The notes under the pieces: model-generated | Seen by the model: the letters and a program-made list of their open reading frames with translations, nothing else | Database searches by the model: none | Told to the model about the DNA's origin: nothing | Part shown: positions 4,095 to 42,104 of the stretch, piece by piece | Layout of the letters: the number at the start of each line of letters is the position of its first letter | How positions within the stretch are numbered: the first letter of the stretch is position 1 | Program-made: the position numbers and the translations under genes | Assembly (NCBI GenBank): GCA_905479815.1 | Contig: CAJQOA010000116.1 | Location: 1-42,985, forward strand | Direction of reading: 5' to 3' | DNA length: 42,985 nucleotides | From: an uncultured Psychroserpens sp. | GTDB lineage: Bacteria > Bacteroidota > Bacteroidia > Flavobacteriales > Flavobacteriaceae

Positions 4095-4100
4095 AACAAT

Positions 4101-4133
4101 AAAAACCGACTTAGAAATGAGTCGGTTTTTTAT
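4101..4133. terminator. Bidirectional terminator between convergent genes
   Basis: AAAAACCGACT...AGTCGGTTTTT hairpin with A/T tracts on both sides. Confidence 0.85.
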
Positions 4134-5923: not shown

Positions 5924-7183
5924 TTATGTTTTTTGTTTTTTCTTTTTAGCTGCAGGGAAGAGTACATTATTGAGTATTAATCTATAGCCTGGCGATGTTG
6001 GATGCAAATCTAATTCGGTTTTAGGATCACCAACTTTATGTGTATAATCTTCTGGATCATGACCTCCATAAAAGGTAAAAAAACCTTTCCCTTTAATACC
6101 GTGAATGTATTTAGCTTCTCCATTAGTTTTATTCTCTCCCAGCACCAATACATTTGACTTAATTTCTTCGCGAGTAAAAGATGTTGTTTGTCCCATAAAA
6201 CCTTTCACTAAAGCTGTATGATTTTGGTTGAGCATTGATGGAATTGGATCCCATTTGGCTGAAAATTCCATGAGTGTAAAATAATCTGTAGTTTTTGGAA
6301 TGCGACGTTTTCTTGTCATATCAATAGAAGAAAATTCATAAACATTTGGACTTCTTTCTAATAAATAGTCTTTAAAAGCTAATGTTCTTGAATAATCAAT
6401 CTTATTTTGATATCCAGCATCACTTCCATCTCCATCAAACATAGGTTCGCAAATATCAACTCCCTCTGCAGACAATGCTATATCAAAACTATCTGTTGCA
6501 CTACACATGGCAAACATAAAACCACCTCCAATAACATATTCTCTAATTTTTTTGGCTACCGCTAATTTTTCTTCGGAAACTTTAGAATATCCTAAACTAA
6601 TAGCTAATTCTTCTGCTTCCCTTTTTTCTCTTATATACCAGGAAGCAGAACGATATGCTCTGTAAAATTTGCCAAACTGTCCCGTAAAATCTTCATGATG
6701 CAAATGCAACCAATCATAAAGTAGTAAAGCATCGTTTAGAACTTCTTCATCATAAATAGTATCATAAGGAATTTCAGCATACGTTAAAACCATTGTCACT
6801 GCATCATCCCATGGTTGTAAACCTTTTGGAGTATAAACAGCAATTTTTGGTGCTTTCTCTAAAACAACTGCTTCCATATTTTGTGACGGACTAGCAATCA
6901 TTTCTAAAATCTCTTCTGCTTTAGAGTTAGATATTACCTCAAAACTTACGCCTCTAATTTGACATTCTCGTTGAATTTCTTCAGAATCTGGCAATAAAAA
7001 AGAGCCCCCTTTATAATTTAAAAGCCACTTGACTTTTAATTGTTTTTCTAATGTCCAATAAGTAACACCATAGGCTTTTAAGTGGTTGTCTTGTCCTTCA
7101 GAATCCATAGGAATTAAAATGTAAGACGCATAAGAGTGTGCAACTACAAATAAAAATATGATTAGGGAAATTGTCTTTTTCAT
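5924..7183 (-). CDS. Secreted protein of the family often labelled 'asparagine synthetase B' in Bacteroidota; function unknown
   Basis: Signal peptide MKKTISLIIFLFVVAHSYAS; no cytosolic asparagine synthetase ATP-binding signature seen. Confidence 0.6.
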   Translation of the reverse strand: MKKTISLIIFLFVVAHSYASYILIPMDSEGQDNHLKAYGVTYWTLEKQLKVKWLLNYKGGSFLLPDSEEIQRECQIRGVSFEVISNSKAEEILEMIASPSQNMEAVVLEKAPKIAVYTPKGLQPWDDAVTMVLTYAEIPYDTIYDEEVLNDALLLYDWLHLHHEDFTGQFGKFYRAYRSASWYIREKREAEELAISLGYSKVSEEKLAVAKKIREYVIGGGFMFAMCSATDSFDIALSAEGVDICEPMFDGDGSDAGYQNKIDYSRTLAFKDYLLERSPNVYEFSSIDMTRKRRIPKTTDYFTLMEFSAKWDPIPSMLNQNHTALVKGFMGQTTSFTREEIKSNVLVLGENKTNGEAKYIHGIKGKGFFTFYGGHDPEDYTHKVGDPKTELDLHPTSPGYRLILNNVLFPAAKKKKQKT

Positions 7184-7209
7184 GTATTCATTATGTATTG
7201 TTTTCTAAC

Positions 7210-7274
7210 GGTCACATGCAATGCGCAATTAATCATTCTCTCGATTGATAAAGCTTTTCATCTGCTCGTTTCAT
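7210..7274 (-). promoter_or_regulatory. Conserved 65-nt leader element, copy A
   Basis: Minus strand ATGAAACGAGCA...AATGATTAATTGCG...CATGTGACC; same length as and 49/65 identical to 41677-41741; ends 26 nt before the downstream ATG. Confidence 0.5.
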
Positions 7275-27963: not shown

Positions 27964-29364
27964 TTAGTTTCTTGTTACAGTAATTGAATTTGACAAATCA
28001 AAACAACCTCCAAGGTCATTAGCATTCATACCCATTGCAGCTCCTGTTAATCCATCTTCATATCGTAAATACCATATTAAACATGTTCCAACGCCTGCGC
28101 CATCAAAATCAACACCTTCTAAAGCTGCGGTAGTTGGTGGTAAACCTAAAATATTACCCATATCATCTGTAATAACAAATGTACTGTTGGTTCCTATAGC
28201 GTTTGAGTCTGTTGTAATTCCGCTTACAAAATCTGAAGTTCCATCAACTGTAAACGTAAATGGCCCACCAGATAATGTTCCTGCATCTGTTTGATTTCTA
28301 GTTACAGAGATTGAATTAGACAAATCAAATGTTCCACCTAAATTACTTGCGTTCATTCCCATTTCTGCTCCTGTTAAATCATCTTCATAACGTAAATACC
28401 AAATCAAACAAACTCCTGCTCCTGCACCATCAAAATCTACACCTTCTAAAGCCTCTAGCGTTGGTGGTAAACCAAGAATGTTGCCCATATCATCAGTTAT
28501 TACAAATGTTCTATTTGTACCTACTGCATTAGGATCTGTTGCAATGCCACTTACATTATCAACAGTTCCGTCAACACAAAATGTAAATGGTCCTCCTGTA
28601 ATCATTCCGGCATCTGGAGCTCCTAATCTATTTACTGTAATAGAATTTGAAAGGTCAAAAGATCCTTGAAGATCATTAGCATTCATTCCTACTTCTGCAC
28701 CTTGAAGTCCATCTTCATATCTTAAATACCATATTAAACATGTACCAACGCCAGCCCCATCAAAATCTACACCTTGTAGTGCATCATTAGTTGGAGGTAA
28801 ACCTAAAATATTACCTAGATCATCTGTTACTACGAAAGTTCTATTTGTTCCTACTGCGTTTGGATCTGTAGCTATACCGCTTACAAAATCTGCCGTTCCA
28901 TCTATTATAAAAGTAAATGGTCCTCCAGTAATTGTTCCTGCATCTGGAGCTCCTAATCTATTTACTGTAATAGAATTTGAAAGATCAAAAGATCCTTGAA
29001 GATCATTAGCATTCATTCCAACTTCTGCGCCTTGAAGTCCATTTTCATAACGCAAATACCAAATTAAACAAGTACCAACGCCAGCTCCATCAAAATCGAC
29101 ACCTTGTAATGCATCGTTAGTTGGTGGCAATCCTAAAATATTACCTTGATCGTCTGTTACTACAAAGGTTCTATTCGTACCTACTGCGTTTGGGTCTGTT
29201 GCTATTCCGCTTACAAAATCTGGTGTTCCATCAACTACAAAAGTAAATGGTCCTCCAGTAATTGTTCCTGCATTAGGAACAATAGCCTGCACATTGTCAT
29301 CATCATTACTACATGATGTTATTAGACCTAGTGCTAATACTACTAAAAACATTTTTTTAATCAT
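27964..29364 (-). CDS. Lipoprotein composed of four tandem ~110-aa repeats
   Basis: Lipobox ITSC; four copies of [N/D]AG.[IL][TS]GGPFTF..DGT.D.VSGI.TD.NA.GTN.TFV.TDD.GNILGLPPT..AL.GVDFDGAG.G.CLIWYLRYE. Confidence 0.9.
   Translation of the reverse strand: MIKKMFLVVLALGLITSCSNDDDNVQAIVPNAGTITGGPFTFVVDGTPDFVSGIATDPNAVGTNRTFVVTDDQGNILGLPPTNDALQGVDFDGAGVGTCLIWYLRYENGLQGAEVGMNANDLQGSFDLSNSITVNRLGAPDAGTITGGPFTFIIDGTADFVSGIATDPNAVGTNRTFVVTDDLGNILGLPPTNDALQGVDFDGAGVGTCLIWYLRYEDGLQGAEVGMNANDLQGSFDLSNSITVNRLGAPDAGMITGGPFTFCVDGTVDNVSGIATDPNAVGTNRTFVITDDMGNILGLPPTLEALEGVDFDGAGAGVCLIWYLRYEDDLTGAEMGMNASNLGGTFDLSNSISVTRNQTDAGTLSGGPFTFTVDGTSDFVSGITTDSNAIGTNSTFVITDDMGNILGLPPTTAALEGVDFDGAGVGTCLIWYLRYEDGLTGAAMGMNANDLGGCFDLSNSITVTRN
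27967..28287 (-). repeat. Protein repeat unit 4 (residues 360-466)
   Basis: DAGTLSGGPFTFTVDG...GGCFDLSNSITVTRN. Confidence 0.9.
28288..28614 (-). repeat. Protein repeat unit 3 (residues 251-359)
   Basis: DAGMITGGPFTFCVDG...GGTFDLSNSISVTRNQT. Confidence 0.9.
28615..28944 (-). repeat. Protein repeat unit 2 (residues 141-250)
   Basis: DAGTITGGPFTFIIDG...QGSFDLSNSITVNRLGAP. Confidence 0.9.
28945..29274 (-). repeat. Protein repeat unit 1 (residues 31-140)
   Basis: NAGTITGGPFTFVVDG...QGSFDLSNSITVNRLGAP. Confidence 0.9.
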
Positions 29365-39704: not shown

Positions 39705-41651
39705 CTAGTTCTTTAAAATTTGTTTTTTTACACGTTTTAGTACTTTCTTATCAACGTTAACTTCAAAGTTTTTATTGAGTGATTTCACCCAATTATCTTC
39801 AATATAATTTTGATAATCACTGACGACTTTACCTCGAGCCTCTTGCAATGTTTTCTTATTTGCAGGCAATACGTTATTCACAAGTATGACATGAAACGAA
39901 TCATTATGCTCATAAACTTGTGACACGCCTTCTTTAAATTCAAAATCTTTAGGCAATGCTTGATCACCTTGTTCAAAGGTGTCAGGCGTTGAAATCACAT
40001 TAAGATTATCATCTTTATTTATTGTTGCCATGATATTTTCTACGGAAACATCTTTTTGTAACTCTTCTCTTATCTTCTCTATTGCAGTTTTTGAAGCCGA
40101 AGATAAAATGACAGCATCTACTCTATTTTTCCAAACATAATTAGCGTTGTTGTTTTTAAAGAATTTTTCAAGACCAACAGAATCTTTTACTGCTGCATTC
40201 CAAACTTCTTTTTCCATAAGATCAAACAATAAGAGCCCGTCTCTATATTCTTTTAAAACAAAAGCAAAATCTTCATTCTCAAACTCTAGGTTATCTTCAT
40301 GGTATTTTAAAACTTGTTGTTCAAAAAAGTCTTCATATTCTGTTTTCAAAAGTGTTTTATAATCTACTAACTTATTATAATACTTTCTTTGGTTAGACAT
40401 CAATTGGTCTGCAAAGTCCTTATACGTAATTTTAGTATCACGTATTGTGATCAATGGCTCTTGTTTTATGTCTACTGGAGTTTTCCATGATTGTTTAAAA
40501 AACCCATCAGTAAGAATCGTTTCGATATACGCTAAGCCTTCTTTTCTATACGATTTAACATCATATTTAGCTACTAGCTTTTTCACCAATGCAGAGTTTA
40601 TAAGTTCTGATCTAGAATCTCGTTTCACTCTATTTTGGAGTTCATTTTTGACCTCCTCAAAAGGTTGGATTCCTTTCTTTTTTATTAATTTGGTAATATG
40701 CCATCCATAATCTGTTTTAAAAGGCTTAGACATATCACCTTTGTTTTCTAATGAGAACGCTACATTTTCAAATTCTTTAGAACGCAATTGACCTCCTGTA
40801 AAAGGTGACAACACACCTCCTTTTTTAGATGAGTTCTTATCATCTGAAAACTGTTTAGCCAAAGACTCAAACTTTTCACCTTGCTCCAGTTTTTTATAGA
40901 TTTGTTTGATACGCGTTTCTGGATTTATAGTGCTATCGTTTTGTTTAAGAGATACCATAATATGTGCAACCGTTACTTCTCCTAAAGATTGGCGCTTTTC
41001 AAAAACCTTAACCACATGATATCCAAAACGAGTTCTAAAAGGCATTGATACTTCTCCAACAGGTGTATTAAACGCAGCAGACTCAAAAGGATAAACCATT
41101 TTGAAACCACCAAAATACCCTAAATCTTCTGCAAAAACACTTTTGCCATCATGTACCTCTTTTTGAACTGCCTCAAAACCTTCATTAATAATACGTTCAC
41201 GTAATTTTAATACTTTATTGTAAACAGCTAACGTATCATCTATCACAGATTCATCTATACGAACCAAAATATGAGATGCTTTGACATCATTAGTTGTACG
41301 CTCATAAGCTTCTCTCACTAAAACATCTGTCACTTTATTATCTGACATGTAATTTTTAGTAAGCTGTTTTTTATAATTATTAAATTCTCTTATATATTTT
41401 GCATCGTCTTGTAAACCTAAACGACGTGCTTCTTTTACTTTTAACTGGTAATTGATAAACAGCTCTAGATATGCATCAACATCTTTTTGACTTTCATCTT
41501 TGACTAAGTCTAAGTTTTTATTGTATACTCTTACAAACTCTGAAGCCATTATAGGATCTCCATCAACAGTAAATAATACATCGTCTTTTTCTAATTGCGC
41601 TTGCGCCAAGAAAGTGAAACAGAAACAAACTAAGGTTACTAATAATTTCAT
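39705..41651 (-). CDS. Periplasmic parvulin-type peptidyl-prolyl isomerase with tandem rotamase domains
   Basis: KASHILVRID...PFRTRFGYHVVKVFEKR and VAHIMVSLKQ...PFKTDYGWHITKLIKKK. Confidence 0.92.
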   Translation of the reverse strand: MKLLVTLVCFCFTFLAQAQLEKDDVLFTVDGDPIMASEFVRVYNKNLDLVKDESQKDVDAYLELFINYQLKVKEARRLGLQDDAKYIREFNNYKKQLTKNYMSDNKVTDVLVREAYERTTNDVKASHILVRIDESVIDDTLAVYNKVLKLRERIINEGFEAVQKEVHDGKSVFAEDLGYFGGFKMVYPFESAAFNTPVGEVSMPFRTRFGYHVVKVFEKRQSLGEVTVAHIMVSLKQNDSTINPETRIKQIYKKLEQGEKFESLAKQFSDDKNSSKKGGVLSPFTGGQLRSKEFENVAFSLENKGDMSKPFKTDYGWHITKLIKKKGIQPFEEVKNELQNRVKRDSRSELINSALVKKLVAKYDVKSYRKEGLAYIETILTDGFFKQSWKTPVDIKQEPLITIRDTKITYKDFADQLMSNQRKYYNKLVDYKTLLKTEYEDFFEQQVLKYHEDNLEFENEDFAFVLKEYRDGLLLFDLMEKEVWNAAVKDSVGLEKFFKNNNANYVWKNRVDAVILSSASKTAIEKIREELQKDVSVENIMATINKDDNLNVISTPDTFEQGDQALPKDFEFKEGVSQVYEHNDSFHVILVNNVLPANKKTLQEARGKVVSDYQNYIEDNWVKSLNKNFEVNVDKKVLKRVKKQILKN

Positions 41652-41677
41652 GTGTTATATTTTATTATTTTTTGAAG
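41646..41677. repeat. 32-nt direct repeat, copy 1 (includes PPIase start codon)
   Basis: TTTCATGTGTTATATTTTATTATTTTTTGAAG, 31/32 identical to 41736-41767. Confidence 0.9.
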
Positions 41678-41741
41678 GTCACATGTTGTTCGCTATTAAT
41701 CATTGTACTGAGTAATAACGATTTTAACATGCTCGTTTCAT
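41677..41741 (-). promoter_or_regulatory. Conserved 65-nt leader element, copy B
   Basis: Minus ATGAAACGAGCA...AATGATTAATAGCG...CATGTGACC; matches 7210-7274; ends 25 nt before the ATG. Confidence 0.5.
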
Positions 41742-41767
41742 GTGCTATATTTTATTATTTTTTGAAG
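41736..41767. repeat. 32-nt direct repeat, copy 2
   Basis: TTTCATGTGCTATATTTTATTATTTTTTGAAG. Confidence 0.9.
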
Positions 41768-42104
41768 TCATGTATTACTATCTAATACCATGCTCATTTT
41801 GTGTGTTACTATTTAATTTAATAGTAATAGTACATCCATCATGCCAAAACATGTTTTGTGACGACTATTAAGTGTATTTCTAAAATTGACTTAACACATC
41901 TAATTTCAGCAAAAATAAAACAATTGTCATATAAAACAAGTCGCTTTTAACAAACGTTAAGATGATACCATTTCGTATGTATAATTACGGGTTATAAACA
42001 CAACTTTAACCACTTATCTAATATTATGGTTGTTGGGCTTTCAATCTACTGTTTATATTGAAAATACTGTATCTTCGAGTCTGAATAATCCCTCTAAATT
42101 CAAA

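Follow-up and report, generated by a model that had tools for sequence, protein, structure and literature searches.

Two segments of the window, the whole stretch of 42,985 nucleotides from an uncultured Psychroserpens sp. analysed here, are very probably copies of a mobile DNA element, non-autonomous and some 91 nt long, that inserts at a start-codon target, an assessment that leaves the class of the enzyme aside. The element consists of ATGAAAC, stem 1, CATGTGACC, an A-rich tract, and CAC, and enters in one orientation immediately 5′ of ATGAA, nearly always a start codon, leaving the gene intact and replacing its 5′ leader. An internal CATNNN pairs with the last three bases of the element and the target ATG, and because this junction stem unites the element end and the target in one helix, it is read as a putative guide that may choose the target during transposition. 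Insertions at start codons presumably survive since a new A-rich initiation region is supplied and the open reading frame (ORF) is left whole, and movement would be carried out by a transposase acting in trans.

The element in the window

The two minus-strand segments from which the original prediction started (7274–7210 and 41741–41677) are identical at 49 of 65 positions without a gap, exactly as first counted, and the next-best match to copy 1 in the whole window, on either strand, reaches 36/65. A repeat finder lengthened the match to 79 nt at 75% identity, and blastn within the host genome gave E = 4e-9 between copy 1 and copy 2. The repeat is therefore real, but the unit of 65 nt assigned to it was too short: aligned copies start with ATGAAAC, continue with GATTAATAGCGAACAGCATGTGACC and the A-rich tract, and end in CAC abutting the ATG of the gene, which gives true lengths of 91 and 90 nt in the window. 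The 25–26 nt once taken for a gap before the ATG belong to the element, as conservation continues across the A-rich tract and stops only at the start codon. The features are as follows.

7184..7274, minus strand: copy 1, with a length of 91 nt, ATGAAACGAGC...AATAC, ending right before the 419-aa ORF and its start codon
7213..7218, minus strand: 5′ arm of the predicted junction stem of copy 1, CATGTG
7181..7186, minus strand: 3′ arm of the predicted junction stem of copy 1, TAC/ATG, with one G-U pair; the ATG is the start codon
7279..7286, minus strand: promoter-like TATATTTC (by inspection), slightly upstream of the copy 1 insertion and kept at the empty sites of sister species
5924..7183, minus strand: ORF downstream of copy 1, 419 aa, start ATGAAAAAG
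41652..41741, minus strand: copy 2, with a length of 90 nt, ATGAAACGAGC...AACAC, ending right before the start codon of the PPIase gene
41680..41685, minus strand: 5′ arm of the predicted junction stem of copy 2, CATGTG
41649..41654, minus strand: 3′ arm of the predicted junction stem of copy 2, CAC/ATG
41742..41800, minus strand: degenerate third copy, AAAATGAGCATGG...ATACATGAC...ATAGCAC, middle deleted, in tandem directly upstream of copy 2
39705..41651, minus strand: gene downstream of copy 2, PPIC-type PPIase (SurA-like), 648 aa

Copy 1 probably lies in the 5′ leader of its gene, because the promoter-like motif stands upstream of it and is retained where the element is missing. A leader peptide had been suggested from a mini-ORF sharing MKRA in both copies; frames and stops after MKRA differ between copies, and the shared residues reflect a fixed end of the element with no conserved peptide. 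A longer frame, M-L-K-x-L-S-x-K-x-M-I-N-S-E-Q-H-V-T, was discarded as well, being broken in many copies and, on inspection, explained by nucleotide conservation. The association with genes for exported proteins is indeed shared by the two copies, and it is traced to the target, because ATGAAA yields proteins starting with MK and signal peptides commonly begin with these residues. The ‘AsnB-like’ label given to the 419-aa ORF found no confirmation, as Pfam returned no match for it.

Two further repeats of the window were recorded: four direct repeats of about 330 nt each (27970–29256) inside one 466-aa ORF (27964–29364, minus strand), and near-identical 33-nt terminator-like hairpins (AAAAACCGACTCAGAAATGAGTCGGTTTTT) at 697–729 and 4099–4131, on both sides of a 1087-aa ORF.

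Copy number and distribution

Where the original prediction knew of two copies, the host genome holds at least 20, about two dozen, and the BLASTN-type check that it had proposed also recovered many across the Flavobacteriaceae. With copy 1 as the query, one search found 17 further places in the host genome at E ≤ 1.4e-5 (18 copies), and other searches add more, tandem copies included. In the GTDB genome collection, an exact 22-nt pattern occurs in at least 115 stretches; the matches listed are from Bacteroidota, mostly Flavobacteriaceae, and the genera among them include Winogradskyella, Lacinutrix, Psychroserpens, Kordia, Polaribacter, Lutibacter, Formosa, Urechidicola, Aureibaculum, and others. 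Another family of the order, represented by the genus of G037 and G051, contributes about 36 element matches. Head-to-tail tandem units are present in L010, L070, L098, L335, L384, L402, and other loci. At the sensitivities used, no copies were found in plasmids, phages, or viral contigs. In a comparison with Rfam 15, nothing in the window reached the gathering score and nothing matched at E ≤ 5 over the element copies in six loci, and no description of the element family was found in the freely accessible literature searched.

Several variants were noted. In L391, L395, and L402 (genus of G037), the arrays comprise two to three units, and stem 1 is long and AT-rich in some (ACAAAATTTTAACA / TGTTAAAATTTTGT). 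A shorter diverged unit, ATGAAATTAGCCATGATAATTGGCGAATTGTATCTGGCC...AGATGAAA, precedes L108-like genes in L185, L186, and L188 (G057–G059) and is possibly an old third subfamily; a pattern search for this TATCT/AGATG type found one locus only, and it was dropped as evidence. REP-like palindromes (CCTGCCTGCC..GGCAGGCAGG, CCTGCACTGAGC..GTCGAAG, TCCCGATA..TATCGGGA) occur inside element copies at L098:1334–1647, L163, L385, L387, L269, L275, and L290, and in different genomes, they enter the element at or near one point, the CATG/CATC right before TG(T)GACC.

Empty and filled sites

Orthologous sites without the element provide evidence for mobility. The copy 1 insertion is common to the window and three congeners (G018, G010, and G009) and missing from at least six others (G006, G016, G021, G022, G020, and G015), in which the flanks align up to the start codon and a promoter-like ...TTTTTGAGTATATTTCAA, with small differences in some, leads almost directly to the start codon. 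At the copy 2 locus, G018, G016, and G009 are empty, G010 carries one copy, and the window has the same copy together with the degenerate tandem copy, which is absent from G010 and lineage-specific among the genomes compared. The window copies thus represent separate, old insertions.

Recent activity is evident in G030, a relative from another genus, in which 27 near-identical copies of the variant ATGAAACATCC... precede unrelated genes, which we take, by sequence recognition, to include serC, argG, and hisB. The variant is absent from the sister species at the sensitivity used, and at L157 and L112, the sister species have no insertion, leaving clean empty sites. One G030 copy (L221:7875–7970) sits between hisC and hisB of the histidine operon, directly before the hisB start codon. 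At both window loci and the two G030 loci, the comparison reveals clean insertions of about 90 nt immediately 5′ of ATGAA. The empty sites and the near-identical copies beside unrelated genes thus identify a mobile family, with no ancestral regulon, and bear out one option in the original prediction, that of a repeat family that inserts upstream of genes.

Target site and orientation

Placement with respect to genes and strand is far from random, which the original prediction had singled out as a point to check. When G030 is excluded, 182 of the 187 non-tandem copies adjoin an ORF of at least 60 aa in sense orientation, and the right flank is ATGAAA in 176 of the 187; as a baseline, of the ATGAAA sites that these loci contain in total, 29% are open for 60 codons. 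In G030, gene starts account for about 20 of the 27 copies, and several (L151, L153, L156, L161, and L162) are at ATGAAA that starts no gene. Loss of gene-breaking insertions can explain part of the start-codon pattern, though probably not all of it: the 69 ATGAAA sites of the window comprise 6 gene starts, 51 positions inside coding regions, and 12 other intergenic positions.

The L112 locus separates the two ends of the element. Both empty sisters read ATGAAT, as does the right flank of the filled site, whereas the left end is ATGAAA, and the left copy therefore appears to be encoded by the element, at least at base 6. Read most simply, the target is one-sided, with ATGAA on the right and the left ATGAAAC belonging to the element; the alternative, a 5-nt target duplication of ATGAA, keeps some residual weight.

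Fold and junction stem

RNAalifold returned no structure, and the fold was assessed with averaged pair probabilities and permutation. Over 185 copies, averaged pair probabilities indicate that the internal CATGTG pairs with the terminal CAC and the target ATG. Among the same copies, five double changes keep the pairing of the junction stem, a number reached in 0 of 2000 permutations (mean, 0.38), which leave the relatedness of the copies uncorrected. The compensations, CATCTG/CAG|ATG, CATGAG/CTC|ATG, CATCTA/TAG|ATG, CATTTG/CAA|ATG, and CATCAG/CTG|ATG, do not share one position or one sequence, which speaks for several events. In the genus of G037 and G051, CATCTG/CAG|ATG is the prevailing form of the stem, and inspection of that second family finds the compensations CATCTA/TAG in L394, CATTTG/CAA in L405, and CATCAG/CTG in L395. 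Stem 1, also judged by inspection, is Watson–Crick in G030 (AACATCC/GGATGTT) and in G037/G051 (GCATGAG/CTCATGC), and has GC/GC above tandem G-A mismatches in the main type.

The folding energy of the sense-strand RNA is under the shuffled mean in 90% of copies, and folding with DNA parameters gives a weaker signal on either strand. On the sense strand, G-U pairs outnumber A-C mismatches, which would favor sense-strand RNA or single-stranded DNA over the bottom strand. After insertion, such a covarying fold may also affect translation.

Search for the mobilizer

No autonomous copy came to light: 207 of 224 right halves have a left half within 60 nt and 9 within 150 nt, and none brackets a gene. 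One unpaired left half in G030 was taken up as a candidate and proved to be a normal copy in the his operon. The neighbors of 115 copies contain no recurring mobile-element gene family, only ordinary housekeeping families. Y1 transposases (PF01797) were undetected in G000, G018, G022, G009, and G029, and in a Lutibacter metagenome-assembled genome with many similar copies, gene absence being weak evidence in the host, whose assembly is about 89% complete. Around 25 Y1-family matches, no element copy is found within 1.5 kb. G030 harbors two IS200-like insertion sequence families in near-identical multiple copies (L195, L200, L204, L208, and L212–L215); they were rejected as the mobilizer because their ends and targets differ from those of the element, and the REP transposases or RAYT-like genes of relatives were set aside because they are flanked by other repeats.

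Comparison with known systems

The closest likeness is to the IS200/IS605 family, exemplified by IS608 and its TnpA Y1 HUH transposase. IS608 inserts 3′ to a fixed tetranucleotide that is read by a guide beside the hairpin foot (PMC5934647). Viewed on its bottom strand, the element would be a one-hairpin unit of this type, inserted 3′ to the target TTTCAT, which is kept as the left flank and followed by GTGTTT..., with a putative guide near the hairpin foot pairing with the target (compare PMC5934647) and one end of the element repeating the target. Head-to-tail arrays and the lack of a clear target duplication are further points in common. In contrast, the element is 91 nt without an ORF, has one hairpin region where IS200/IS605 members have two, and targets the start codon. 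For transposition like that of IS608, a bias to the lagging-strand template would be expected; element orientation relative to replication, by skew test, counts 22 versus 16. Strand agreement within G030 contigs was dismissed as a sign of such bias, since it follows local gene orientation. As a cognate Y1 transposase was not found, the element is withheld from IS200/IS605 membership, and the assignment of its enzyme to this type, argued by analogy, is tentative and the least certain step of the proposal.

REP/REPIN sequences mobilized by TnpA-REP (RAYT) are likewise short, non-coding, structured, multi-copy, and dispersed between genes. They differ in that the element consensus has no GT[AG]G at the foot of stem 1 (subclass 2.6 is reported to have atypical ones, PMC6006769), inserts precisely at start codons in one orientation, and coexists with RAYT-like genes that have other repeats. 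RAYT genes of subclass 2.6 are flanked by atypical structures that are copied elsewhere in Bacteroidetes genomes (PMC6006769), and because such Bacteroidetes-specific RAYTs have been reported, a diverged member may be involved. With MITEs and with BOX and RUP of pneumococcus (PMC3049150), the element shares small size, dispersal, non-autonomy, and intergenic position. Unlike MITEs, its ends, ATGAAACGAGC and ...ATAAACAC, form no terminal inverted repeats on inspection, and it is set apart from all three by a target duplication of at most ATGAA and by start-codon specificity.

Alternative explanations

Inheritance with the genes, as a cis-regulatory leader RNA (riboswitch-like or protein-binding) of a regulon, is highly improbable as the origin of the repeat, a role that the original prediction had entertained. 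The constant sense orientation next to the start codon, the covarying stem enclosing that codon, the RNA fold steadier than its shuffles, and the retention of some insertions at the same gene in several species would all suit a leader, but a regulon is left unsupported, given that no relationship links the downstream genes and that sister species lack the element at the same genes. Moreover, the recent identical copies of G030 include several at ATGAAA outside gene starts (L151, L153, L156, L161, and L162), and Rfam offers no match. Putative mobile promoters were reportedly described by Matus-Garcia et al. as near-identical sequences before unrelated genes, and the element resembles them in this respect. 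That it spreads by bringing transcription, for which its position directly upstream of genes and a body of work on mobile promoters cited in PMC8049555 could be adduced, is nevertheless given equally little credence: defined ends and target, a covarying fold, and empty sites distinguish the element, inspection of the consensus reveals no promoter of the Bacteroidota-type TANNTTTG, one insertion is inside the his operon, and in the window, the promoter-like motif is upstream of the element and persists at empty sites.

Two other explanations accept mobility and change its route. Site-specific recombination of a double-stranded circle by a tyrosine or serine recombinase or an IS110-like enzyme, with ATGAA as the crossover core, would account for the ATGAA direct repeats at the two ends, the head-to-tail arrays, and the single orientation; it is judged unlikely, as a conserved arm site is missing from the left flank and only one side is recognized, no recurring linked recombinase is found among the neighbors of 115 copies, and the covarying junction stem is left unexplained. 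An RNA intermediate, in which the 91-nt RNA is reverse spliced or reverse transcribed at mRNA start sites, would explain the strict sense orientation at start codons and would agree with the sense-strand RNA fold, the pairing of the putative guide with AUG, and the excess of G-U over A-C on the sense strand. This route is distinctly unlikely, given that G030 insertions also occur at ATGAAA that begins no gene and that selection against disrupted ORFs can account for the orientation without RNA.

Implications

As a rule, a mobile element in bacteria either disrupts a gene or comes to lie between genes. A mobile element that settles on translation start sites, brings its own initiation region, and leaves the gene intact could replace many 5′ leaders at once. 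To our knowledge, flavobacteria largely lack Shine–Dalgarno leaders, and the consequence of such leader replacement for expression in these bacteria can be put to the test. According to the prediction drawn from the covarying junction stem, the choice of target depends on a few bases of the element, as in IS608, and the mobilizer is now a concrete search target. Roughly an even chance is given to the broader picture, in which minimal guide-bearing elements of about 91 nt read the start codon by pairing an internal CAT with the target ATG and have spread in the Flavobacteriaceae through an enzyme or an RNA process yet to be described, rewriting 5′ leaders genome-wide and leaving the ORFs intact.
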